A program made the translations under genes and the position numbers. From contig CACZMF010000004.1 in assembly GCA_902782225.1 (NCBI GenBank), forward strand, positions 1-64,000: a DNA stretch of 64,000 bases, read 5' to 3'. This DNA comes from an uncultured Bacteroidia bacterium. Lineage in GTDB: Bacteria; Bacteroidota; Bacteroidia; Bacteroidales; UBA932. The notes under the pieces are model-generated. The model searched no databases, was not told where the DNA came from, and saw nothing but the letters and a program-made list of their open reading frames with translations. This document shows positions 32,717-45,013 of this stretch, piece after piece (position 1 is the first letter of the stretch; each line of letters opens with the position of its first letter).

Positions 32717-32722
32717 AAAATG

Positions 32723-32730
32723 TATATTTG
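32723..32730 (+). promoter_or_regulatory. -7 promoter box for the five-lipoprotein operon
   Basis: Perfect TATATTTG, about 120 nt ahead of the first lipoprotein ATG. The leader contains a hairpin CCGGCTG/CAGCCGG (32771-32800) with an inner GGAT/ATCC stem and no following T-run. Confidence 0.7.
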
Positions 32731-32736
32731 CACCTT

Positions 32737-32865
32737 ATGTGTGACAAATGTGCATTTGCGTACGTCCCCCCCGGCTGCCGGATAGTTATCCTTCAGCCGG
32801 GGAACATACTTGTCGGAAGTCAGCAGGCCGCCTCTACCAAGGACATCAGTTATGAAGACATTTAA
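32737..32865 (+). CDS. possible upstream ORF in the operon leader, 42 aa
   Basis: ATG 6 nt after the TATATTTG box opens a 42-codon frame (MCDKCAFAYVPPGCRIVILQ...) that runs through the leader hairpin and ends 14 nt inside the first lipoprotein gene in another frame. The position mirrors the trp leader upstream, and the ATGTGT start is shared. It may be a leader peptide that couples to the downstream start, or chance. No enriched amino-acid codon run is seen apart from Pro-Pro. Confidence 0.3.
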   Translation: MCDKCAFAYVPPGCRIVILQPGNILVGSQQAASTKDISYEDI

Positions 32866-34498
32866 GTCCATTCCGCTGGTGTTTCTTGTCCTCCTCGCAT
32901 GCCAGCGTGAGGAATCCCCCCTGCCTCCCGCTCCCGGGCCGCAGCTGGTGGAGCATACGCTGTATGCCTCTACGCCCGGCGAGGATGCGCCCCAGACCCG
33001 CACCATTATATCCCCGTACAATGAGAAAAAGATTCTCTGGAGCGCCCGCGAAAGCATCTCCATCCTGTGCGGCGAAGGCAATTACACGTTCCAGGGAGAT
33101 AACGAAGCCCCTGCCCCTACCGCCAATTTCACCGGGATGGGCCCTGCGGACCTGGGCAGCTACATTGCTCTTTATCCCTACGATTTTTCTGCTACATATG
33201 CAGGAGGTTACGTATCAACTAAGCTGACACCTTTCCAGCTCGGCAAGGACGGCTCTTTCCGCGACGGCTACCTGGTCACCGCAGATGACGCCACGGGTAA
33301 CAGCATCTCTTTCAACCATGTGTGCAGCGGCCTCCGGTTTATGGTGAATGCCGATAATATCAAGGCCGTGAGCATCAGGGGCAACAACGGGGAAAAGATT
33401 GCCGGCGATTTCCGCTTCCGCTTTACCGCGGAAGATACGCCTGTGGCTGAAGCCGGCACGGAGCAGTTCGTAACCCTCAGCCCGTCGTCCGGAAGCGCTT
33501 TTGAAGCAGGAAAGTATTATTATATCATCATCCTCCCCACGGTTTTCTCTAAGGGATTCACCATTACAGCCGACAATGGCAGCCAGATCGGCGAGCTTCG
33601 TTTCGAATCCAGCGCAACCTTCACGGCGGGCAAGTTCAAGAATGTCACCGGCAATCTGGATGAAAGAATGACGTGGACAACGCCTTCGGGCCGGGTCTAC
33701 TACGGCCAGGAAAACAGTTTCTGCCTTCGGCCGGGAGAGACCGTCAGTTTTGACGTGAACCCACGGAAGATTTCCGGCTCCTGGCAGCGGAGCGGTTTGC
33801 CTGCATCGATAGGTTTTCCGGATGAGGCGGAGGTGCTATGGGGCGGCGGGTCGGCATCAATATCGAGTGACAGCAAATTGACCATCACGGCCTCCGCCAC
33901 GCCCGGAAGTGCACTGGTTGCCATCAAAAAGAACGGCACCATTCTCTGGTCCTACCTCATCTGGGTGACGGAATCGGCCCCGGCCGAGACCACCCTTCCC
34001 AGCGGTGCCAAGGCACTGCCCGCCCTGGGCGGCGACTGCTATTTTCAATGGGGGCGCAAGGATCCGCTGCTCTCAACCGCAAACGTAGCAAACCCTGGGG
34101 CCAGCTGTCTGGCATATTCCATCTCACACCCGACAGAATACATCAAGAACAATACTGCCATTTATGACTGGATTGATGATATCGACTGGACCTTATGGGG
34201 AGACGGCACAGCCAAGACAGTATGGGACCCTTGCCCCATAGGCTACAGGGTTCCGGCAAAAGATGATTTCTCAGGGATAAATGAAAAATATCTGACCGAG
34301 AGTTTTGAAGCACTTGGCTACATCACTTATAATGGCTATCACAACCATACTGACTATTATTACTGGACAAGAAGCACGGACTTCCAAGGTGATGTGCGAA
34401 AACTCTCCTGGTTCTTGGGCGTGCCCACACCTGAAACCGACATCCTCTGGACTGATTACCGATACATGGCCTATCCGGTCCGTTGCGTTAAAGAATAA
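32852..34498 (+). CDS. fimbrillin-like/FISUMP lipoprotein
   Basis: 548 aa. SPII signal with lipobox LLAC17 (MKTFKSIPLVFLVLLAC) followed by QREE, an acidic post-Cys stretch like a Bacteroidota surface-export signal. Residues about 30-285 resemble fimbrillin-type domains (QTRTIIS, ILWSARESISIL, YIALYPYDFS, ISFNHVCSGLRFMV). Residues about 290-385 are an Ig-like segment. The C-terminus (about 390-548) matches the FISUMP paralogous domain (CYFQWGRKDPLL, WDPCPIGYRVPAKDDF, YYYWTRST, MAYPVRCVKE). Probably surface exposed; function unknown. First gene of a five-lipoprotein run, 16 nt before the next. Confidence 0.8.
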   Translation: MKTFKSIPLVFLVLLACQREESPLPPAPGPQLVEHTLYASTPGEDAPQTRTIISPYNEKKILWSARESISILCGEGNYTFQGDNEAPAPTANFTGMGPADLGSYIALYPYDFSATYAGGYVSTKLTPFQLGKDGSFRDGYLVTADDATGNSISFNHVCSGLRFMVNADNIKAVSIRGNNGEKIAGDFRFRFTAEDTPVAEAGTEQFVTLSPSSGSAFEAGKYYYIIILPTVFSKGFTITADNGSQIGELRFESSATFTAGKFKNVTGNLDERMTWTTPSGRVYYGQENSFCLRPGETVSFDVNPRKISGSWQRSGLPASIGFPDEAEVLWGGGSASISSDSKLTITASATPGSALVAIKKNGTILWSYLIWVTESAPAETTLPSGAKALPALGGDCYFQWGRKDPLLSTANVANPGASCLAYSISHPTEYIKNNTAIYDWIDDIDWTLWGDGTAKTVWDPCPIGYRVPAKDDFSGINEKYLTESFEALGYITYNGYHNHTDYYYWTRSTDFQGDVRKLSWFLGVPTPETDILWTDYRYMAYPVRCVKE

Positions 34499-34514
34499 TT
34501 ATAAGATTTATAGT

Positions 34515-35525
34515 ATGAAAGCTAAATTATTTACACTCACCTCAATCCTCCTGCTTTTCTGCACGGCAGCATTTGTTTCGTGCAATAAGAATGAGGGTCC
34601 CGATGGGAATCAACAAGAAGAATTCAAAACCGACGATGCCGCATTCATCATGTCTCAATTTGCCGAATGGGACGACAACGGTAACCTGTTGTTCCGTACA
34701 AAGGGTTTTACTCTGAATGAAGCGGACGACACCGAGGTCTCCCTCTGCGTGGAAACATGGGAAGAGTCTTTGATCATGTTCAAGGAATGGATGCCCGCAG
34801 ATGCCGACTTTTCCGAGACCGCCACGTCCCTTACCTGGAAAATGAGCGACGGATTTGGCAAGTCCCAGGGGCAGGCTGTCCTGAGCAAGGTAACCAACGG
34901 CTCAATGGTAGCCGAAGCCAAACTCCCTTCCGACATCCCCTTTGTCCGGACCATCCGCTTCATTCCCGAGGACAAATGGCCCACCAATGGTGGCGGTATT
35001 GTTTACGTCGATAAAATCAGCGCCAGTCAGTTGCTTGAGCCATATTTCTTTGGCAACACCGTCCTTATCGAAGAGCCTACGCACCATGGAACCGGCAAAT
35101 TTGTCGTGATGCGTGAATTTGACAATGAAACAAATGAGAAAGGACTTATAATGCGCCTCCCGAAAGGTCACAAGTATAATGCTTTCGCGGAATGGTCCAA
35201 TATCTTCAGCGACAATTGGGATAAGATTAAATCACGTGTCAGCAAGGTCGGCGTTGTAACAACCCTGGTGAAAATATACAGGGAAGACAGGGATTTTTGG
35301 GATCCTATTATGGATGCGGCCGATTTTGATACCCGCGACTACACCTATTTTTGCTGGGACGGGGGATGGAGTTTCTTTAAAGGATACCAATATAAGAAGA
35401 TTAACTTCATAAAGGGGGATGCGGAAAGCCTTAGCGAAACCCATCCCAATATGAGAGAATGCTGGGCCTACCATTTCTGGGTAGAAGAGGACAAAAACGG
35501 TGTCCTTCAGTTGATTATTAAATAA
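34515..35525 (+). CDS. lipoprotein of unknown function, 336 aa
   Basis: SPII signal MKAKLFTLTSILLLFCTAAFVSC with lipobox VSC23. I do not recognise the domain. The body is rich in Trp, Asp and Glu (FAEWDDNGNLLF, WEESLIMFKEWMPADADF, FIPEDKWPTNGGGIVYVD, DRDFWDPIMDAADFDTRDYTYFCWDGGWSF), with predicted mixed alpha/beta structure. The DNA is AT-richer than the core genes either side of the island. Nine nt separate its stop from the next gene. It probably works with the other lipoproteins of the unit. Confidence 0.78.
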   Translation: MKAKLFTLTSILLLFCTAAFVSCNKNEGPDGNQQEEFKTDDAAFIMSQFAEWDDNGNLLFRTKGFTLNEADDTEVSLCVETWEESLIMFKEWMPADADFSETATSLTWKMSDGFGKSQGQAVLSKVTNGSMVAEAKLPSDIPFVRTIRFIPEDKWPTNGGGIVYVDKISASQLLEPYFFGNTVLIEEPTHHGTGKFVVMREFDNETNEKGLIMRLPKGHKYNAFAEWSNIFSDNWDKIKSRVSKVGVVTTLVKIYREDRDFWDPIMDAADFDTRDYTYFCWDGGWSFFKGYQYKKINFIKGDAESLSETHPNMRECWAYHFWVEEDKNGVLQLIIK

Positions 35526-35534
35526 TCCACGCAA

Positions 35535-37952
35535 ATGAAAAGATGTTTTTGGGTTGTTTTGATTGCCCTTTCCAGCCTGTTTCTGGCAGCTTGCAGTAAG
35601 GATTACCCCATCAACCCTGACACGGGAGAATATCCTTACGCTCTTTCCGTCTGGAACTTGAACTATACGGAGGAGTTTGCCTTGAGAGAGATGGGGCTGG
35701 TAGAACTCTCTTCCGTGGAATCCATCCCTTCCTGGATAGGCGGAGTCACCCTGTCTCAGGATGCTGACAAGGAAACCACCTTTGCTCATATCGAAGTCAA
35801 ACGCACCGTGGATCTGGGGTCCGAACAGACGGCTGACATCAAGCTCAAAATGACCAGTGGAGCCACCGCGACCATCCATCTTGTCCAATGGCCGGAAAGT
35901 TCCGCTCAAAACGATGGTCCCGTAAGGTCCATGAATTCCGAATTCGAGAAAGATTGGGCCAGTGCGAAGGAAATATCCCTCGTTTTAAAAACGACGGATT
36001 TGAATGGACGCCCTCAGGTTGTGACCGAGCCGGTCCAGCTTCCCTGGGCGGCCAACAACACGCATCATCTTCCACACGGGGAAATAACCAAGATGCTGGA
36101 TCATAAGGACGACTGGCGTATGGTCTTCAACCTGACCGGTGTGGAAACCCTTCCCAAGCGGCACTACTTTGCTTTGTATAACCGCTATTCCGGAGTGCTG
36201 CGCGTGTTTTACTATTGGCACAGTGAGGATATCCCTACGGATGGGAACGATCATCTCTGGTCTTTCGAACTGGACCGCAGCATCTCCCAACATCAGGCTA
36301 CACAGTTCGCAGTGCCTTATGATGAGGCTGCGACAGATGCTTATAAAAGATATGCTGCAGACCCGGTGCTGCTTACCCCCTATGCCAGCAGGGCCGACGA
36401 AGTGCAGGGAGGAAAAATGCTTCCTGCCGTTGGCTGGTGGGCTTTCGATGTGAATATGGCCGCTTCACGCAATCATGATTTCTTCAGTGAGTCGCCCAGG
36501 GAGTATGCCGCCAAGATAGCCCCTAACATCTATCACGAAGACAACGTGGCTCTGAATTCCATCCTGAAAGGCAGTCTGGATGGAGCGTTGAAAGGAAAAA
36601 TCAACCTCGATGCTTTGTATCCGAAGGGCACTAGTGAATTTGGATCGATTCTGAATTGCGCAGGTGAAGGCTTAGGCGGTTGGATGTTGAGTAATTTTGT
36701 CCTGCAATCAGCTTTCGGCAAGGCCGGCGATGCCGATGTGTCGGGGAAAAGGAAATTCGCAGGTTGTTTTATGGCTCTTGTCGGCTCTGCCCTTTCCGCC
36801 GGAGGTAAATTTGCAGGAAGAGAATTGAAAGACAAATCAGGCGCCCCTGAAGAATTGGGCGAGCTCAATGCCTCTATCAACCTCGACCTCAACGCTACTA
36901 TGACCACATCGGGAATCATCGGTGGCGCACGTGCTACGACAATTCCACCCACCACGCTGGAAATGGCTAATTTCTGGCAGAATACGCCTGCCAAACAGCC
37001 TACTGGTTTCGGAAAAGGAGTATGGAACCTCAGGAAGCATCCTGTGGTGTATGTGGTGACCGATGCATATTGGCATGAAAACAACTTCTCCGTCACGAAA
37101 TCCGGAGTGCTCTACAGGAAGAACAAGAGGGATTATTACTATTATCAAACAGGAGGTGACCCGGATCGTCCCGGTCTGCGCATTATCAGTTTCCTGGACC
37201 CTACATCCGTGGAAGGCATTTACCTGAACGACGATCTCTTCGACGATGGTATAACCTATTGTGATGTGGAGCTGGCCTATGGGGTTTATCCTTCTTCAGA
37301 GGAGGGATATACCAATGCATTCAGGCAGTCGTTGGGGCTGAATACAGACCTGTCATGGCGCTTTTCAAACAAGTCATCATTCGTCTCGTCCAATAAGTCC
37401 CAGATAGACTTCAAACTATGCCAGAACAGAAGAGAGGACGCCATTTTCAATTACTCCGAGATTGATCCCGAACTGACTGACTATGTGGCCTTCCGCCGGA
37501 GTGAACAGTTTATTGCAGACACGATTGCGCGCCGCTATTATGGCCCGTCTATGTTCTATACCAAGGAATTTGCGAATCCCTACCAGGTGGACCAGGTGCA
37601 TTTTGTGACCGATCCCCAGATTGACGTTCCCTTCGACAACGTCGGCAAGGATGCAAAGGGAAAGCCGCAAAAGATGATTGTAGACCCCCAGCTGCCTGAT
37701 TTTGTGGTAACCGCAGTTCTCACTGTCAACGGCAGAGACCATACCGATGGCGAGGAGCAGACCATGGTAAACACCCTCCGCTTTGTTCCGGAAGTCAAGT
37801 ATATCAAATGGTCCCAACTGAACAATATCTATAATTCAATTGAGAGCCACCAGATGAAGAATATAACCGGAAAATCCATTGATGTGAAGTGGACTTTCAA
37901 GGACCAGCAGGTTAAAAAGATACGAGACTTCAGGGACGCTTTGAACAAATAG
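35535..37952 (+). CDS. large lipoprotein of unknown function, 805 aa
   Basis: SPII signal MKRCFWVVLIALSSLFLAAC, lipobox LAAC20. No recognised domain. Residues about 30-115 look like an Ig-like/BACON-type sandwich (VSSVESIPSWIGGVTLSQ-like stretch, FAHIEVKRTVDLGSEQTADIKLKM, ATIHLVQWPE). The middle has two Gly/Ala-rich helical stretches (GGWMLSNFVLQSAFGKAGD, KFAGCFMALVGSALSAGGKFAG), unusual in a soluble lipoprotein and suggestive of membrane-inserting or amphipathic helices. The C-terminal third is beta-rich (VDQVHFVTDPQIDVPFDNVG, FVVTAVLTVNGRDH). AT-richer than the genome background. Overlaps the next gene by one nt (TAGTG). Confidence 0.75.
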   Translation: MKRCFWVVLIALSSLFLAACSKDYPINPDTGEYPYALSVWNLNYTEEFALREMGLVELSSVESIPSWIGGVTLSQDADKETTFAHIEVKRTVDLGSEQTADIKLKMTSGATATIHLVQWPESSAQNDGPVRSMNSEFEKDWASAKEISLVLKTTDLNGRPQVVTEPVQLPWAANNTHHLPHGEITKMLDHKDDWRMVFNLTGVETLPKRHYFALYNRYSGVLRVFYYWHSEDIPTDGNDHLWSFELDRSISQHQATQFAVPYDEAATDAYKRYAADPVLLTPYASRADEVQGGKMLPAVGWWAFDVNMAASRNHDFFSESPREYAAKIAPNIYHEDNVALNSILKGSLDGALKGKINLDALYPKGTSEFGSILNCAGEGLGGWMLSNFVLQSAFGKAGDADVSGKRKFAGCFMALVGSALSAGGKFAGRELKDKSGAPEELGELNASINLDLNATMTTSGIIGGARATTIPPTTLEMANFWQNTPAKQPTGFGKGVWNLRKHPVVYVVTDAYWHENNFSVTKSGVLYRKNKRDYYYYQTGGDPDRPGLRIISFLDPTSVEGIYLNDDLFDDGITYCDVELAYGVYPSSEEGYTNAFRQSLGLNTDLSWRFSNKSSFVSSNKSQIDFKLCQNRREDAIFNYSEIDPELTDYVAFRRSEQFIADTIARRYYGPSMFYTKEFANPYQVDQVHFVTDPQIDVPFDNVGKDAKGKPQKMIVDPQLPDFVVTAVLTVNGRDHTDGEEQTMVNTLRFVPEVKYIKWSQLNNIYNSIESHQMKNITGKSIDVKWTFKDQQVKKIRDFRDALNK

Positions 37953-38962
37953 TGCGGGTTTTCTTCTCATACGTTTGCACCCTTCTCCTCCTCACTGCCC
38001 TCTTGGCCGGGTGCGGCAAGGCGCCGGCCACCGCGCCGGCGCAGCTGACGGTCTTCATCGGCACCGACGGCTACGGAGACGGCAGCTATAATGACACCAT
38101 GCTGGAGGGCATCCTGGGCTTCTGCAAGGACCATCCGGAGGTGAACCTGAGCCTCCAGCAGCCGGAGAGCATTGCCGATGCCGGGAAGCGGCTGGACGCC
38201 TGGCTCTCGGAGGAAGAAAGTGCAGACCGCGCCCTCATCCTCGCCAGCAACACCTACGAGGATATCCTCCGGGGAAAGCCGGCCCCCAAAAACGGCCGCG
38301 TGCTTATTCTGGAGACCGATGACGTTTTCCCGGGGCATTCCTCCTACATCATCCGCCGCTACGGCGCCTCGTGGCTGTGCGGAGCCATGTCCCGCTCTTT
38401 CACGGGCGTCATCTTCAAGGCCATGGACGGCAACGATATGATTGAAGAGAGCGCCCGCGGCTTCTCCGACGGCCACGGCGCAGCTTCTGAAAGTAAAGTA
38501 TATACCTGGACGCTGGCCGACGGCCCGCAGGGCTTTGCCATGCGGGACAGCACATACCGTTTCGTGTACAGAAAGTCTCAGGAGTTATACGAATCCGAAG
38601 AATTCTTTGGCGATCTTTTGTTCTTCCCCCTTCTGGGTGGATCCCTGTCCGGCCTTTTTGACTATTGCAGATATAACGGCTTCATCCAAATAGCCGGGAT
38701 GGACGTGGACTGCTCGGCGCTCAATCCCCAGATCGTTCCTTACTCCCTGTGCGTGAACAACCATCTTGCCCTTAAGAAGTATCTGGAAGACTGGCTTGCC
38801 GGCGTGCCCTGGCCGGAGCACCGGGAGTTCGGCCTGGAAAGCGAATACGTCCAGGTGGTTCCGGGCAAGCAGTTCGATGTTGAGAACCTGGATATGGCCG
38901 CCCTGTATAAGGAATTCTATCCTCTGGCCGTAGAAAAGGAGAAAGCGTATGAGGTGGAGTAG
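37952..38962 (+). CDS. BMP/PnrA-type periplasmic-binding lipoprotein
   Basis: 336 aa with GTG start in a TAGTG overlap. SPII signal with LAGC21. The fold matches the BMP (PnrA/Med) ligand-binding family: VFIGTDGYGDGSYNDTMLEGILGF at the N-terminus, ALILASNTYEDIL, then FFPLLGGSLSGLFDYCRYNGFIQIAGMDVDCSALNPQIVPYSLCVNNHLAL, with the characteristic GxDxD and final SLxxN. BMP proteins bind nucleosides, but here no ABC transporter is nearby and the N-terminal half is diverged, so it may be a receptor. Overlaps the receptor-protease gene by 14 nt. Confidence 0.8.
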   Translation: MRVFFSYVCTLLLLTALLAGCGKAPATAPAQLTVFIGTDGYGDGSYNDTMLEGILGFCKDHPEVNLSLQQPESIADAGKRLDAWLSEEESADRALILASNTYEDILRGKPAPKNGRVLILETDDVFPGHSSYIIRRYGASWLCGAMSRSFTGVIFKAMDGNDMIEESARGFSDGHGAASESKVYTWTLADGPQGFAMRDSTYRFVYRKSQELYESEEFFGDLLFFPLLGGSLSGLFDYCRYNGFIQIAGMDVDCSALNPQIVPYSLCVNNHLALKKYLEDWLAGVPWPEHREFGLESEYVQVVPGKQFDVENLDMAALYKEFYPLAVEKEKAYEVE

Positions 38963-41039
38963 ACTGCTATATGCCCTGTTTCCGCTCCTGTTGCTTTTTT
39001 CCTGCAACGGGAAAGGTCAGCTGGACGGAGGACAGAAAGTGAATTCCTACAAGGTGGCGGTGGTTCTTCCCTCCTTGGAGAAAGCAGAACTTTCCAAGAT
39101 CGTAGACTGGGCGCAGGAAACCATCAAGGCCGCCCAGATGGGGCAGGAAAGCCGGATAGAACTGGAGCTGGAATGGATTGACGAGGATGGATTCGGTATG
39201 GCCAGGGAAGTGGCCCGGGTTGCCCACGATAACAGTTATGCGGCCATCATCGGCCCGCGATACAGCCGCAACGCCCGTGTCATTGCGCGGGAAAGCCTTT
39301 CCTACCGCATTCCTGTACTGGCGCCTTCCGTCACATCCACGGAATTCCAGCGCATCTATGCGGGCAGCAACATGACGGAGCCCAATGTCTTCTGCCTGGC
39401 AGAGAATGACATGGCGCAGTGCCAGGCCATGCTCTCCAAGGCCCGGGCCAACAACTATTCCCGCATCTCACTCATTTCCAGGGACGGAAAGAAGGACGAC
39501 TACGCCGCGTCCTTCCAGCAGTTCTACGCCTATATGGCGCGCGAAATGGATATGGAGGTGGAGGAAACCTATTTCTTTGAAAATAAGGCAGAATTGAAAG
39601 CGGCCATCCAGAAGGCAATCGCCGTCGAAGAAGAAGCCCCCTATCCAGGCGTGTTGTTCTTTGTCCCTTCTTCGGCCGGGGATATGCTGGATTTTGACGA
39701 GGCCATCAAGCTTAGCGAGGACAGTGAATACCTTGCCATCGTTTGCACTGACATGGCCTACGACCTGTCCCTGGAAGGAAAGCTGAAAAACTACAACTAC
39801 GAAGGTACGGCGCTCTCCTCCAGGCCCGGAGAAGGATTCGACGTTGCCTGGAAAAGCCGCTGCGGGACGCTCCTTCCCGGCGGCTACGCCCAGTTGTATG
39901 ACTGCTTTTATCTGCTGGCTCTTGCCGCGGCCGTGGTGGAAAGCGGCGACGCCGCTTCGGTCAGGGAGGCCATCGTGAGTCTCACGTCCGGAGAAAAGGC
40001 TTCCACGCCCATCTATCCCTGGACAGCCTCCGGTATGCGTGACGCTTTCCGGGCGGCTAGGGAAGGGGATTACGGACGCATTACAGGCGTCTCCGGCCCC
40101 CTTGAATTCGAAAGTCAGACGCATATATGCCAGCTTGGCACCACCTACAGCACATGGACATATACGGGTGGAAAGTATGTGGAGACCGGACGCTTTTCCC
40201 GCGATTTCACCGGCGGCGACCTCTGGAACTGGACCAATACCCAGATCGAGGACATGTATGACGAGCAGGCAGCCGATCTTCCTTATCCAGACCTTAAGGA
40301 CCACTATGCCGTGGTGATCGCCACGTCCACCGGCCGGAACAACTATCGGCACCAGGCCGATGCCCTGGCCCAGTACCAGATGCTGAAGGGCTTCGGCTAC
40401 AACGACGACCACATCATCCTTATCCTGGAAGACGACCTTGGCTCTGACGTGCACGTCACTCCGGGCGGAGAGAACCTGCGCACTGGTGCCGTCATCGACT
40501 ACAAGACCAGCCGTGTGACGCCTGAAGACCTCCGGAACATCTTCTCCGGCACTCTCACCGAGCGCACCCCTGCGGTTGTCCAGGGCGGTCCCGGCACCAA
40601 TGTATTTCTCTTCTGGAGCGGCCACGGCGCCCGTGACGAGGTGCTCATGTGGGCCGATGGCAAATTGGAGGCGGAGGCTTTCCGCGGCATTCTGGAGGGG
40701 GCTGAAGGGAACTACCGGAAGCTGCTGGCCGTGATGGAAACCTGTTACAGCGGTTCTATCGGCAGTTATTGCGAGGGGCTTCCGGGCGTACTGCTGCTAT
40801 GCGCAACCCGCAGCGGCGAGACTTCACACGCCGACGTGTTGGAAGACGGCATCTACCTTTCCAACCGCTTCACCCGCGTGTTCCGCAGCGAGGTGGAAGC
40901 CAATCCGGCCATATCGCTCCACGATCTCTACTACCAGCTCGCCACCCACACCACCGCATCCCACGCCGGCCTCTACAACGACGCCTGCTATGGGAATGTC
41001 TATCGCAACACCCTGGAAGAATTCCTGAAGCCGCTTTAA
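38949..41039 (+). CDS. lipoprotein fusing a type I ligand-binding domain to a C13 legumain-like protease
   Basis: 696 aa. SPII signal with FSC19. Residues about 34-390 resemble a Peripla_BP_6/ANF-receptor bilobed domain (VAVVLPSLEKAELSKIVDWAQ, YAAIIGPRYSRNARVIARESLSYRIPVLAPSVTS, ISLISRDGKKDDYAASFQQFY, GFDVAWKSRCGTLLPGGYAQLYDCF). Residues about 450-690 match C13 (legumain/GPI8): YAVVIATSTGRNNYRHQADALAQYQMLKG starting at Y453, H559 in FLFWSGHGARDE and C599 in METCYSGS, 40 residues apart as in legumain (41). C13 enzymes cleave after Asn/Asp and can act as transpeptidases. Last gene of the lipoprotein unit; stop overlaps the convergent gene's stop. Confidence 0.88.
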   Translation: MRWSRLLYALFPLLLLFSCNGKGQLDGGQKVNSYKVAVVLPSLEKAELSKIVDWAQETIKAAQMGQESRIELELEWIDEDGFGMAREVARVAHDNSYAAIIGPRYSRNARVIARESLSYRIPVLAPSVTSTEFQRIYAGSNMTEPNVFCLAENDMAQCQAMLSKARANNYSRISLISRDGKKDDYAASFQQFYAYMAREMDMEVEETYFFENKAELKAAIQKAIAVEEEAPYPGVLFFVPSSAGDMLDFDEAIKLSEDSEYLAIVCTDMAYDLSLEGKLKNYNYEGTALSSRPGEGFDVAWKSRCGTLLPGGYAQLYDCFYLLALAAAVVESGDAASVREAIVSLTSGEKASTPIYPWTASGMRDAFRAAREGDYGRITGVSGPLEFESQTHICQLGTTYSTWTYTGGKYVETGRFSRDFTGGDLWNWTNTQIEDMYDEQAADLPYPDLKDHYAVVIATSTGRNNYRHQADALAQYQMLKGFGYNDDHIILILEDDLGSDVHVTPGGENLRTGAVIDYKTSRVTPEDLRNIFSGTLTERTPAVVQGGPGTNVFLFWSGHGARDEVLMWADGKLEAEAFRGILEGAEGNYRKLLAVMETCYSGSIGSYCEGLPGVLLLCATRSGETSHADVLEDGIYLSNRFTRVFRSEVEANPAISLHDLYYQLATHTTASHAGLYNDACYGNVYRNTLEEFLKPL

Positions 41040-42223
41040 TTTGATCTGCGGAGAGTCTGCGAGGGGAGCAAGATCTTCAGTTTGCTGATGCTCCTGCCCA
41101 CGTAGTAGAACAGGTTGAGGGTCGTGCCGTCGCTGTCGAAGTATACGGAACTCAAGTACTTATGGGCTTTCTTGTTGCGGCAGGCCGGTTCGCACCAGAC
41201 GAGGGTGCAGTCGCCGGTGGACTTTGATACGGTGCAGATGACGGTGTAGCCGCGGATGTCGAAGACGGCCGCGTTGCTGCTCCTGCCTTTTTCTTTAGGG
41301 GCCTTCCTGCAGGCCGCCGCTATCGAGGACTCGGGATCCAGCTGGCCGAAGTGCAGGCGCGACGCTCCGCCCTGGGCTTTAGGGTTCTTTTCCAGCCACC
41401 ATTTAATGGCCGTGTCGGTCAGCAGGTCGGCTTTGGAAATCTGCTGAAGCGAGCTGTTTGCCTTGAATTCCTCGACTATCCATGCGGTCTCCGGACTCAG
41501 GGCGAGGCCCTCGATCATTTCGGGGCTCTGGCCCTCGATCCTGAAGTCTTCGCCTTCGGACGGCTTCACCGGATTGCCGTAGAACATCGCCTGGTTAACT
41601 ATGTCTTCATAAGGGAGATAGAGAACCTCCACATATTCGGAGTCTCCGTTGAGGTAGCCGATGTAGAGGTAGTTCCGCAGGTTGAATGACGGCAGGACGT
41701 CAAAGAACTTGACCAGGGTAAAGGCCCCCGGGGTGTCGGACAAAGAGTAAACGGGAATGCTCCTGGTCATCTCCAGTTCGCCGGAAGGGGAGAGAAAGCG
41801 GAGGGACAGCCCCTCGTCAAGGGCAACGACGTGCTCGACATTGTCGACCTTAAAGCCTATGGCGTCGAGGCACTTGCCTGCAATCTGCAGGGCTTCTTCG
41901 TGATCGATCTGGGTCGCGTTGTGCTCCATTATCCTGTCTGTGGCCAGGTCGATGAAGGGGGAGTCCGGGTATGTGTTATAGTAATTGCGCATGCCCTCAG
42001 CATCATCGTAGTCTATGGCGAAGAAGACGAGGGAGTCCCGCAGGCGCAGGACTTTGGGCGCATAGACCGATTCCGGATACTTTTTCAGGAACCTCTCCGC
42101 CGCCTTCAGGGTCGGCTTCTTGACGGTCCTGCCGTACATGTTGGTCTCGGCTTTACTTTGCGCTGCGGCGGCCGCAGGCAGCAGTGCCAGGCAGATCAGT
42201 GCCGTGAGGATGCTCTTTCTCAT
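41036..42223 (-). CDS. secreted protein of unknown function, 395 aa
   Basis: Signal peptide MRKSILTALICLALLPAAAAAQ. The first 130 residues look like degenerate TPR/Sel1-type helices (LKAAERFLKKYPESVYAPKVLRLRDSLVFFAID, MRNYYNTYPDSPFIDLATDRIMEHN). The rest is beta-rich, without a family I recognise (LYIGYLNGDSEYVEVLYLPYED, IRGYTVICTVSKSTGDCTLVWCEPACRNKKAHKYL). Its start overlaps the stop of the Ntn hydrolase gene by 4 nt, so the two are probably co-translated and may act together in the periplasm. Confidence 0.72.
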   Translation of the reverse strand: MRKSILTALICLALLPAAAAAQSKAETNMYGRTVKKPTLKAAERFLKKYPESVYAPKVLRLRDSLVFFAIDYDDAEGMRNYYNTYPDSPFIDLATDRIMEHNATQIDHEEALQIAGKCLDAIGFKVDNVEHVVALDEGLSLRFLSPSGELEMTRSIPVYSLSDTPGAFTLVKFFDVLPSFNLRNYLYIGYLNGDSEYVEVLYLPYEDIVNQAMFYGNPVKPSEGEDFRIEGQSPEMIEGLALSPETAWIVEEFKANSSLQQISKADLLTDTAIKWWLEKNPKAQGGASRLHFGQLDPESSIAAACRKAPKEKGRSSNAAVFDIRGYTVICTVSKSTGDCTLVWCEPACRNKKAHKYLSSVYFDSDGTTLNLFYYVGRSISKLKILLPSQTLRRSN

Positions 42224-43365
42224 CGTATTCCTTTAAGGCTGAAATCCACGGTGGTGTCGTAGTCGTTCCAGTTGCGCAGGTGGAGGGCCAGGTTGGTCTG
42301 GTCATAGACATTGCTGTACTGGGTGTCCTCGACGGTGCCGTCCTCCCAGAGGAGGTCTTTCCAGTGCACCTGGGCAAGGCATTCCTGCGCCTGCTCGAGG
42401 GTGAGGGTGCCGTCGTGGGCAGAAAGGTAGGCATCCGCAGTCTCGTAGCGCCACCAGCTCTTGCTGTGGGGGTTGCCGACGGCGATGTCGGGCACGGGGG
42501 AGTAGTACTTGTCGGAAAGCAGGTGGTTGGTCACGAGCATGTAATTCGCGGCCTCGTCCTTGCGGACTATCATAGTCTTCCAGCCGTCTTCCTTGTCGAA
42601 TTCGACCACCGCGCAGTCGCCTTTGGCATCGGCCACCATATAGTGGTAGCCGGAGCCTACCGCGGCGTCGTGGCGCACGTCAAGGGTTTCCAGCAGGTCC
42701 AGGGCCTCCTGCACAGTCGCGCAGCGGTCGAGCCAGAGGCGCATGATGATGGTGGTGCCGACATCGTGCTTTTCCGTGTCCTGCTGCGAGGCCTGGCGGG
42801 GAAGGGCCATGATGGAGGTGCAAAGGCCTTTTTCATTGATTCCGTCCACGGGCGCATAGATTGAAGCAAGGCAGCTCAGACGGGAGAAAAACGAGTCGGG
42901 AAGCTTGTCCAGGGAGTATCCGAAGTGGGACATGTCGCTCACCCCGATTGAAGCGTATCCCTTCTTGGGGCGGGAAATGGTCACCATTGTGGGATTCTTG
43001 AAGAAATCGTAATTGCGGCCGTACCAGAAGCCGTTCCCGTCGGCCTTCGCGGCCTGGAAACTGGTGCAGTTGAAGGTGGCTGTCTCGCCGTTCTCGTCGG
43101 CCACCTGGGCGCTCTTCATCTTGATGGGTATGCCTTTCCCGATGCGTCCGATGACGTAGTCGAGAAGCTCCGGGTTGGAATCGACGTCCTTTGCGATGAG
43201 GTCGTCCAGGTCGTATCCGGCCTTGTATTCCATCTTGTAGAGATAGGGATTGCCACCCACGGATTCGATGGTGGATATGGTGCGGATCTCCCCGCCCCAG
43301 ATGCAGGCGATGGCGATGAACAATGCGGCGAGGATGCCGATAAGCCAGGTGATTACTCTTTTCAT
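42220..43365 (-). CDS. membrane-anchored linear amide C-N hydrolase (choloylglycine hydrolase-like)
   Basis: 381 aa. A single N-terminal membrane helix (VITWLIGILAALFIAIACIW) is followed by an Ntn-hydrolase domain. The motif NCTSFQAAKADGNGFWYGRNYDF matches the choloylglycine/penicillin acylase family (CTSxxxxxxDGxxxxGRNxDF), making C100 the predicted nucleophile. IYAPVDGINEKGLCTSIMALP and GSGYHYMVADAKGDCAVVEFD are further family blocks. Family members cut amide bonds of bile salts, penicillin or N-acyl lipids. Normally the Cys becomes N-terminal; here about 99 residues precede it, so either propeptide removal or a variant is implied. The start at 43365 is supported by a TACTTTTG box. Confidence 0.85.
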   Translation of the reverse strand: MKRVITWLIGILAALFIAIACIWGGEIRTISTIESVGGNPYLYKMEYKAGYDLDDLIAKDVDSNPELLDYVIGRIGKGIPIKMKSAQVADENGETATFNCTSFQAAKADGNGFWYGRNYDFFKNPTMVTISRPKKGYASIGVSDMSHFGYSLDKLPDSFFSRLSCLASIYAPVDGINEKGLCTSIMALPRQASQQDTEKHDVGTTIIMRLWLDRCATVQEALDLLETLDVRHDAAVGSGYHYMVADAKGDCAVVEFDKEDGWKTMIVRKDEAANYMLVTNHLLSDKYYSPVPDIAVGNPHSKSWWRYETADAYLSAHDGTLTLEQAQECLAQVHWKDLLWEDGTVEDTQYSNVYDQTNLALHLRNWNDYDTTVDFSLKGIR

Positions 43366-43381
43366 ACAATTGGTATTTGGT

Positions 43382-43389
43382 GCAAAAGT
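43382..43389 (-). promoter_or_regulatory. -7 promoter box for the Ntn hydrolase gene
   Basis: Reverse-strand TACTTTTG, 16 nt upstream of the ATG at 43365. Confidence 0.55.
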
Positions 43390-43408
43390 AGTAATGCGAT
43401 GAAGGGCG

Positions 43409-45013
43409 TTATCGCTTGAACTCGAACCGTATGTCGGCAGGAATCTTTTCCAGTCCAAGTTTCAGGCAGTCGGCGTCGTAGTCGGTGCTGCGCTTGGAGT
43501 ATTGGGCCTCGAACTGCCCGGCAAATTCACTGTCGCCTGTGGCCTGGGTCTTGAGCACGAGGGCGGTGAGCTCGGAGAGGGCCGATTCCATCTTCTTGAA
43601 ATCCAGTGCGTACTGGCCGGAAGCCTTGCGCTGGAAAGCGCCTGCCTGGGCCAGGTAGTTGTAGATCATGATGTTGGCACGTCCCAGCGCGGAGCCTTCG
43701 CCAAAGCGCTCAGAGCGGAGCAGGGAAGCGAAGAAGGTGGCAAGAGCATCTTCCTTGGTGAAGATGTGGTGGATGTCGAAATGGTCCTGTAGCCTGCACA
43801 CAAGCAGGGTCCCGGCTGCATTTGCCTTCACTTCTTCGAATGTGGCGGCAGAAGTGCCGAGGGCCTCTTCCACGCTGCCCTTGCCGTTTACGGTTTCTTT
43901 CACGCCGAGGCCGTGGGCCACTTCACGGAACACGATGTTCCAGAAGAACGCGTCCGCGTTGAGGTGATCTGCATCGTTGGATTCCAGAAGGATTTCGCCG
44001 CAGGGGTTGACGATATGGTTGTATTTGGCGTTGATAATGTTCTCCAGAAGTATGGTGCGTGTGCCGCGGTCGCGCTGCACGTCGCTGTCGAAGGGCAGGT
44101 TCAGGGCGATCACCTTCACGCCGGCGTTGGCCTTGCCCGCATAGTAGAGGGCGTCGCAGGAGAAAATATTGGAGCCGGTGCCGGGCTGGAAGGTCTTGTA
44201 GGCAGGGTCGCCGGGGAGGTCTTCCTGGAACTCGCCGATACGGGACACATACTGCATCAGCTCATTGGTGCGGCCTTCTTTTTTCAGCAGCACGTATGCC
44301 TCGTATGAACGCTTGATGCCGAGCAGCTGGTCGTCGGTCACTTCGTTGGGACCGATCACCAGGTCCATCTTGCTGTCGTCCATGTCCAGCCATGCGATGG
44401 AACTCTCATAGTAGCTGTCGGTCTTCAGGGCTTCCGCCTTCTTCAGCAGATAAGCGGCCACGCTGGGCTTGATGGTGATGTCTGCAGCAGCCTTCATGTA
44501 GTTGCCTATCTTGTCGATACGCTCCTTGTAGGCGTCGTGGTACCAGACAGCCTCCAGGGAACCGTCGGCGGCGCGGCGGACGAGGGTGTAGGGGCTGTTC
44601 TTGTCGGGGTTGTTCCAGGCGTCGAACTCTTCCATGGTCATGTCGGCAGGGTAGAAGCCTGCGCCGGGAAGACGGTCGGCATAGCCCTCGACGAAGGACT
44701 TGCCGGTGGCACGGTCCCAGGGGCCGTAGTTGATTTCTGCGAAAGTCTTCTGCACGGGGTCGGTGATGCCGTCCAGCAGGGCCTGCTTGTCGCCGAAGTA
44801 CTGCTGCCAGTAGATGGCATCCACTTCGTCGGCCGCGAAGCGGTAGAGGTTGAGGACCTCCTTGCCGTTGTCGGTGATGCCGCTCAGGTCCGGGGTTTCT
44901 ATGGTCACGACGGCGTAGTCCGCTACGCTGCGGGTGAACGGAGATTTGGGTGATTCATTGCAAGATACCGCTGCCAGAACCGTGAGGGCAGCGAAGATGG
45001 AAAACTTTTTCAT
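43409..45013 (-). CDS. M49-like (dipeptidyl-peptidase III family) lipoprotein, altered zinc motif
   Basis: 534 aa. SPII signal with lipobox AVSC18. The body matches Bacteroidota Zn-dependent M49-like hydrolases (LYRFAADEVDAIYWQQYFGD, YGPWDRATGKSFVEGYADRLPGAGFYPADMTMEEFDAW, IALNLPFDSDVQRDRGTRTILLENIINAKYNHIVNP). At the zinc site HExxHGLG is replaced by R363-EVAH367-GLG and the downstream EExKAD by EEVKAN (393-398). One of the His ligands is therefore missing. The protein may be inactive or use another metal arrangement. It is 4 nt downstream of the AspT-type transporter gene. Confidence 0.82.
   Translation of the reverse strand: MKKFSIFAALTVLAAVSCNESPKSPFTRSVADYAVVTIETPDLSGITDNGKEVLNLYRFAADEVDAIYWQQYFGDKQALLDGITDPVQKTFAEINYGPWDRATGKSFVEGYADRLPGAGFYPADMTMEEFDAWNNPDKNSPYTLVRRAADGSLEAVWYHDAYKERIDKIGNYMKAAADITIKPSVAAYLLKKAEALKTDSYYESSIAWLDMDDSKMDLVIGPNEVTDDQLLGIKRSYEAYVLLKKEGRTNELMQYVSRIGEFQEDLPGDPAYKTFQPGTGSNIFSCDALYYAGKANAGVKVIALNLPFDSDVQRDRGTRTILLENIINAKYNHIVNPCGEILLESNDADHLNADAFFWNIVFREVAHGLGVKETVNGKGSVEEALGTSAATFEEVKANAAGTLLVCRLQDHFDIHHIFTKEDALATFFASLLRSERFGEGSALGRANIMIYNYLAQAGAFQRKASGQYALDFKKMESALSELTALVLKTQATGDSEFAGQFEAQYSKRSTDYDADCLKLGLEKIPADIRFEFKR

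Follow-up and report, generated by a model that had tools for sequence, protein, structure and literature searches.

The closest described counterparts of the protein analyzed here, F00, are legumain (MEROPS C13) for its C-terminal part and the bilobed receptors LivJ/LivK, the metabotropic glutamate receptors (mGluR) and the taste receptor T1r3 for its N-terminal part. F00 is encoded on contig CACZMF010000004.1 of GenBank assembly GCA_902782225.1 (uncultured Bacteroidia bacterium; Bacteroidales, UBA932), of which positions 1 to 64,000 were analyzed; this whole stretch of 64,000 nucleotides (nt) is called the window. With legumain, F00 shares the catalytic domain with its His-Cys dyad, the NYRHQ and DY..VTPE motifs and the fold. 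In contrast to legumain, it is a predicted bacterial lipoprotein that carries an N-terminal receptor domain and ends after the catalytic domain without the LSAM regulatory domain. LivJ/LivK, mGluR and T1r3 have the bilobed fold in common with F00, and four pocket residues can be aligned. However, the flytrap of F00 is fused to a protease, and neither an ABC transporter nor a transmembrane signaling part was found.

Venus kinase receptors resemble F00 in that an amino-acid-type flytrap is joined to an enzyme (available excerpts of PMC2680970), but these receptors are animal transmembrane tyrosine kinases whereas F00 is a bacterial protease, so that the two are alike in the flytrap fold only. 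Fragipain and DpnB (C11) are clan CD lipoprotein proteases of Bacteroidales, and C11 surface proteases activate the CDCL and BcpT toxins (excerpts of PMC11169675 and PMC9308784); processing of a co-resident toxin is the role proposed here for F00. F00 differs from these enzymes, as far as the excerpts describe them, in its family (C13), its predicted specificity for Asn instead of Arg/Lys, its location in an operon and its sensor-like domain. Arg-gingipain matures FimA and Mfa1 fimbriae (excerpts of PMC5954841). The BSAP toxins of Bacteroidales are MACPF proteins (excerpts of PMC12853789), and MACPF proteins, many of them lipobox-bearing, are encoded in six operons related to that of F00.

We tentatively propose that F00 acts as a ligand-gated protease whose substrates would be lipoproteins of its own operon, cleaved at asparagine. 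A literature search among open-licence papers yielded no description of a flytrap-C13 fusion among the papers listed. If the gating is real, F00 would be, to our knowledge, the first known receptor-protease fusion of this kind.

Domain architecture and active site of F00

By sequence and by predicted fold, F00 is a fusion of a flytrap with a legumain-type C13 peptidase. Its features are as follows.

38949..41039, plus strand: F00, receptor-protease fusion of 696 residues
39003..39005, plus strand: Cys19, predicted lipidated residue (lipobox LFSC)
39045..40208, plus strand: type I periplasmic-binding / Venus-flytrap domain (residues 33-420)
within 39045..40208, plus strand: candidate pocket residues S106, T129, D154, Y185 (by alignment) and D268 (by spacing)
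40293..41036, plus strand: C13 peptidase domain (residues 449-696)
40347..40349, plus strand: R467, at the position of the Arg in the NYRHQ motif of legumain (by alignment)
40623..40625, plus strand: catalytic His559 (by alignment)
40743..40745, plus strand: catalytic Cys599 (by alignment)

In the Pfam scan, Peptidase_C13 (PF01650) scored 125.3 bits against a curated cut-off of 22.8, and ANF_receptor (PF01094) was also above its cut-off. These two domains constitute the entire Pfam content of F00, and no C11 domain was found. A fold search with the predicted structure placed the N-terminal part in the type I periplasmic-binding (bilobed) fold, and the catalytic His and Cys sit in a caspase-like fold. 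An initial annotation of this DNA had described a binding domain and a C13 protease with an H559/C599 dyad in a single protein; the two-domain structure is borne out by Pfam and the predicted fold, and the dyad and the family by alignment, Pfam and the caspase-like fold. Since the C13 match stops at residue 679 of 696 and no LSAM prodomain is present, F00 should be regarded as a C13 member and not as legumain proper.

When 46 copies of F00 were aligned, the dyad was intact in 44 of the 45 copies spanning it. R467, whose counterpart in legumain presumably has a role in the S1 pocket, was kept in every aligned copy covering this position. Because of this conservation we expect F00 to be active as a protease. 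E597, two residues ahead of Cys599, is Glu in the family with Asp in four copies. A preference for Asn is predicted from what is known of the C13 family (excerpts of PMC4357240). The sole exception with regard to the dyad is locus L065 (8344-10554), where Asn and Ser occupy the His and Cys positions. This copy has no upstream partner gene F01 (see below) and is located after a TonB-dependent receptor gene; it may represent a natural pseudo-protease that keeps only the receptor role.

Position 19 is Cys in 42 of the 46 aligned copies and a gap in the remaining four, and F00 is predicted to be a lipoprotein. A role in anti-phage defense was rejected, since PADLOC returned a weak caspase match only (E 0.0058) and no match for six other proteins submitted.

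Ligand pocket of the flytrap domain

The best non-bacterial profile match of the F00 flytrap was the taste receptor T1r3 (5x2m, E 7e-5). In this profile alignment S106, T129, D154 and Y185 pair with T1r3 residues, which we take to be the equivalents of mGlu1 Ser165, Thr188, Asp208 and Tyr236. Ser165, Thr188, Asp208, Tyr236 and Asp318 make up the amino-acid ligand set of mGlu1, with the residue roles given in the excerpts of PMC2680970. All five candidate residues of F00, D268 included, show no variation across the 41 rows of alignment A2 (close homologues), and D154 and Y185 are kept in all F00 copies spanning them. As the residues matching mGlu1 are conserved among close homologues, we infer that the flytrap may bind an alpha-amino acid or a similar ligand, and we read the pocket as retained in the clade of the window protein.

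Conserved partner gene and operon

F00 belongs to five co-directional lipoprotein-like genes (F05, F02, F03, F01, F00) with intergenic gaps of -14 to +16 nt. The elements upstream of F00 are listed below.

32737..32865, plus strand: mini open reading frame (mini-ORF) of 42 codons that opens the operon and runs into the start of F05
32852..34498, plus strand: F05, predicted lipoprotein of 548 residues with weak Pfam matches
34515..35525, plus strand: F02, predicted lipoprotein of 336 residues, F02/F07 family (profile E 4.8e-56)
35535..37952, plus strand: F03, predicted lipoprotein of 805 residues, BACON-like N-terminal part and a body of unknown fold (profile comparison)
35910..35912, plus strand: Asn126 of F03, candidate legumain cut site (conserved Asn in a poorly conserved linker)
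37952..38962, plus strand: F01, predicted lipoprotein of 336 residues with a PnrA/BMP nucleoside-binding-protein fold (model and a remote Bmp relative)

The most constant neighbor of F00 is F01, a gene that the initial annotation had not mentioned. It lies directly upstream of F00 in 40 of the 43 copies whose upstream sequence extends for at least 700 nt (three contig-edge copies set aside, three duplicate contigs dropped). The two frames touch or overlap in 36 of these 40 pairs, with exact overlaps being approximate as frames were set by the first start codon. The three copies lacking F01 in this position are L020, in which the frame is broken and F01 precedes its first half; L065, the copy without the dyad; and L100, where the N-terminus is missing. 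Where fusion genes occur in tandem (L060 and L090), each copy has its own F01. In the window F01 begins with GTG and overlaps F00 by 14 nt. The protein itself matches no Pfam family, but a Bmp domain (PF02608) was found in the remote relative P0180. Its structure model has a predicted local distance difference test score (pLDDT) of 88.8, and the fold matches were the nucleoside-binding Lbp, PnrA and BmpD.

Mini-ORFs similar to that at the head of the operon were seen by eye in L011, L016 and L020, and the one in the window is a possible leader peptide. For F05 the profile scan started at 32855, with the start codon read at 32852. F02/F07 proteins were considered as MACPF candidates and rejected, since the profile comparison matched the signal peptide and nothing more. 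F03 as a hidden MACPF protein was likewise rejected for now: its profile-profile match to MACPF lipoproteins covers 128 N-terminal columns only, which comprise the signal peptide and the BACON-like part.

Gene neighborhoods and MACPF proteins in relatives

In relatives, the genes upstream or downstream of the F01-F00 pair include members of three families: MACPF, F02/F07 and F03. MACPF lipoproteins are in line with the pair in six of them (L063, L066, L076, L082, L083, L097). The assignment is based on Pfam matches above cut-off, and five of the proteins also match perforin and complement C6-C9 in profile comparison. Many of these MACPF proteins have a recognizable lipobox and several have BACON N-domains. 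F02/F07 genes alternate with the MACPF genes, whose place is elsewhere occupied by F03; in the genome G979, a locus of the F03 type and one of the MACPF type occur together. When compared with the BSAP toxins as described in the available excerpts, the window operon differs in having F03 and no MACPF gene, and the MACPF proteins of related operons differ by their F02/F07 arrays and, in several cases, by their BACON N-domains.

Among 33 of the 41 known fusion-bearing genomes we found 20 MACPF matches in 8 genomes; there were none in the other eight known fusion-bearing genomes, which have partial fusion genes. Fourteen of the 20 matches lie no more than 12 kb from the fusion gene, compared with 0.31 expected for uniform placement, and 6 of the 8 genomes have at least one such match. 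The other six occur on 5.3-15.5 kb contigs, where they form arrays with F02/F07 genes and no fusion gene was seen in the stretches read. Ten genomes of the genus sample have MACPF matches and no fusion, and at six loci read from them neither F00 nor F01 was present in the stretch covered. The effector set (MACPF plus F02/F07) can exist apart from the F01-F00 pair, and the MACPF link characterizes some operons and not the whole fusion gene family. One of the six loci, L127 (8649-13860), carries a MACPF-F02/F07-MACPF array in a genome without a reported fusion gene.

Distribution, phylogeny and mobility

A database search yielded 463 homologues of F00. Among the 120 listed, C13 was present in all 120 and both domains in 100. 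Named genome records contributed 16 loci. Twelve of these show 82-92% identity, and several of the twelve are truncated at contig ends; in three others the match is limited to the final 42-48 residues, and in one Firmicutes record to a portion of the binding domain (30%). With the exception of the latter, the record titles name uncultured Bacteroidales or Bacteroidia, and the stated sources are yak, sheep or reindeer; 'RUG' in these titles presumably stands for rumen genomes. In sampled whole genomes the fusion was present in 27 of 250 for the genus of the window and in 7 of 393 for the order, and in four other families it was found in 7/56, 4/18, 2/80 and 1/13 genomes. In a sample of 295 genomes of the order, all seven C13 matches with E <1e-30 (six genomes) fall in frames of 700-782 residues and align as fusions. 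Thus, in these samples, the legumain-like C13 proteins of the order come fused to a flytrap. In a sample of 395 genomes of the phylum, the window's own C13 match was the only one of this strength.

In the phylogenetic tree, 22 of the 40 rows form a clade (support 99/99) that includes the window protein. Six partial copies were left out of this tree, and the program warned of long branches. The clade holds all six MACPF-linked copies, all four copies with F07 only, and six of the seven F03-linked copies.

DNA similarity to the window starts at about 32.7-32.9 kb in L011, L016 and L020. At the other end, it breaks off at the F00 stop codon or shortly ahead of it in nine window-type relatives that were compared over the whole fusion gene. 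The sequence after this stop codon differs among most of the ten loci (window and relatives) that were compared; by eye, two pairs look alike. The operon (window 32720-41039), or the F01-F00 pair, behaves like a cassette that is found at different places. Fusion-gene 3' ends that stand alone, without the remainder of the gene and among other neighbors, were seen in L022 (8001-8144), L023 (8001-8138) and L024 (8001-8126; same contig as L070). They measure 110-146 nt, share 84-90% DNA identity with window 40888-41033 and are candidates for deletion scars or recombination sites.

Functional interpretation

For the tentative reading of F00 as a ligand-gated protease, the following sequence of events can be envisaged. 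The flytrap would bind an alpha-amino acid or a similar ligand, and its closure, possibly with F01 as second sensor, would switch the protease on. The protease would then remove or separate the BACON-like N-terminal part of MACPF or F03 lipoproteins, which might thereby become free to assemble. F00 would thus be the counterpart, encoded in cis and equipped with a sensor, of the C11 proteases by which Bacteroidales toxins are activated. In F03 a candidate cleavage site follows directly after the BACON-like part: of the ten aligned rows (one contig being represented twice), nine have Asn at this position (N126), and its flanks have the lowest conservation (0.41) among 11 conserved-Asn columns. 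This is a hint that N126 might be the cut site of F00. Ligand-gated processing of neighboring proteins had already been suggested in the initial annotation; the position at the end of a lipoprotein operon, the MACPF genes of some relatives and the conserved pocket residues add to this suggestion, and gating is a prediction. We judge that support falls from an active protease over co-encoded lipoproteins as substrates and an amino-acid-like ligand to control of the protease by this ligand.

Several observations weigh against this proposal. For F03, no Pfam match and no PDB profile match were obtained (the PDB search used alignment A4, which includes one unrelated row, L012, that is dropped in A7). 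The genome of the window has no MACPF match, so that any pore-forming step there would rest on F03. D268 is matched to mGlu1 Asp318 by spacing only, and S106 and D268 are lost across much of the second F00 clade. Among the 18 tree rows outside the clade of the window protein, none was assigned a MACPF or F07 neighbor and one (L084) was assigned an F03 neighbor; the pair must, therefore, also work without these neighbors. In the window-type loci L012 and L014, DNA similarity starts only within F01, and F01-F00 alone is shared; in L012, collagen-repeat and M6-peptidase-like genes are upstream of the pair instead. Among the 250 genomes of the genus sample, 13 have MACPF, 27 the fusion and 3 both (one-sided P 0.15, not significant), and for this reason the MACPF link has to be drawn from operon adjacency. 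The initial annotation had located F00 at the cell surface; however, the canonical surface-export signal (motif of PMC5080379) is absent after Cys19 of the window protein, and a loose export pattern was matched in 8 of 42 copies. Finally, the interdomain linker (residues 423-435) has pLDDT values below 50, so the model is uninformative on coupling between flytrap and protease.

A more far-reaching version, which we consider doubtful, is a complement-like convertase, in which an amino-acid-gated F00, with F01 as a nucleoside-type second sensor, would fire perforin-like lipoproteins of the same operon by an Asn cut. The trigger would be a chemical cue, which might come from a competitor, the host or lysed kin.

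It is unlikely that F00 is instead a constitutive maturase, whose C13 domain would trim fimbrillin-like or adhesin lipoproteins for polymerization, with the flytrap as a docking or substrate-binding part and no gating. This idea draws on the weak fimbrillin-like match of the first operon gene, F05 (Mfa_like_1, E 0.006, next to Fib_succ_major, E 0.061), and on gingipain, also of clan CD, which is required for Mfa1 polymerization (excerpts of PMC5954841). However, both F05 matches are below cut-off, and no fimbrillin family was reported among the neighbors scanned from four MACPF-containing loci (L063, L066, L082, L097). Moreover, conserved pocket residues in close homologues are unexpected for mere docking.

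Nutrient scavenging, with the flytrap and F01 capturing amino acids, peptides or nucleosides released by the protease, appears rather improbable. The binding folds of both proteins would fit such a role, but the scan of the genes in the window operon reported neither an ABC-transporter nor a TonB family, and this reading would account neither for the MACPF operons nor for the strict pairing of F01 with F00. F00 was also rejected as the substrate-binding protein of an ABC transporter, since the operon has no transporter genes; in the Pfam scan no ABC family was found in the scanned neighboring genes either. A GPI8-like transamidase or ligase that attaches operon lipoproteins to a surface acceptor without cutting is very improbable: no evidence favors the ligation or transpeptidation raised in the initial annotation over cleavage, and F03, F02 and F05 show by eye no hydrophobic C-terminal sorting-like tail, ligase-specific features not having been searched for.

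Some Bacteroidales toxins need cutting by general C11 proteases (PMC11169675, PMC9308784). Here a protease of another family, with a receptor-like domain of its own, shares an operon with MACPF in several lineages. If gating of F00 is real, the protein would offer a simple model of extracytoplasmic proteolysis under small-molecule control, comparable to what Venus kinase receptors offer for kinases. It would also provide a testable answer to the question of how a perforin-like weapon could stay held back until a cue arrives.

Further neighboring genes

In L099 the fusion gene has as neighbors three large proteins that all belong to one additional family. In L088 (12143-14598) it is followed by a gene resembling secretory lipases and by another binding lipoprotein (Peripla_BP_4). 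Past the window operon, convergent genes on the minus strand (41036-45013) encode a protein of 395 residues, a C45 acyltransferase-like hydrolase and an M49-like peptidase.
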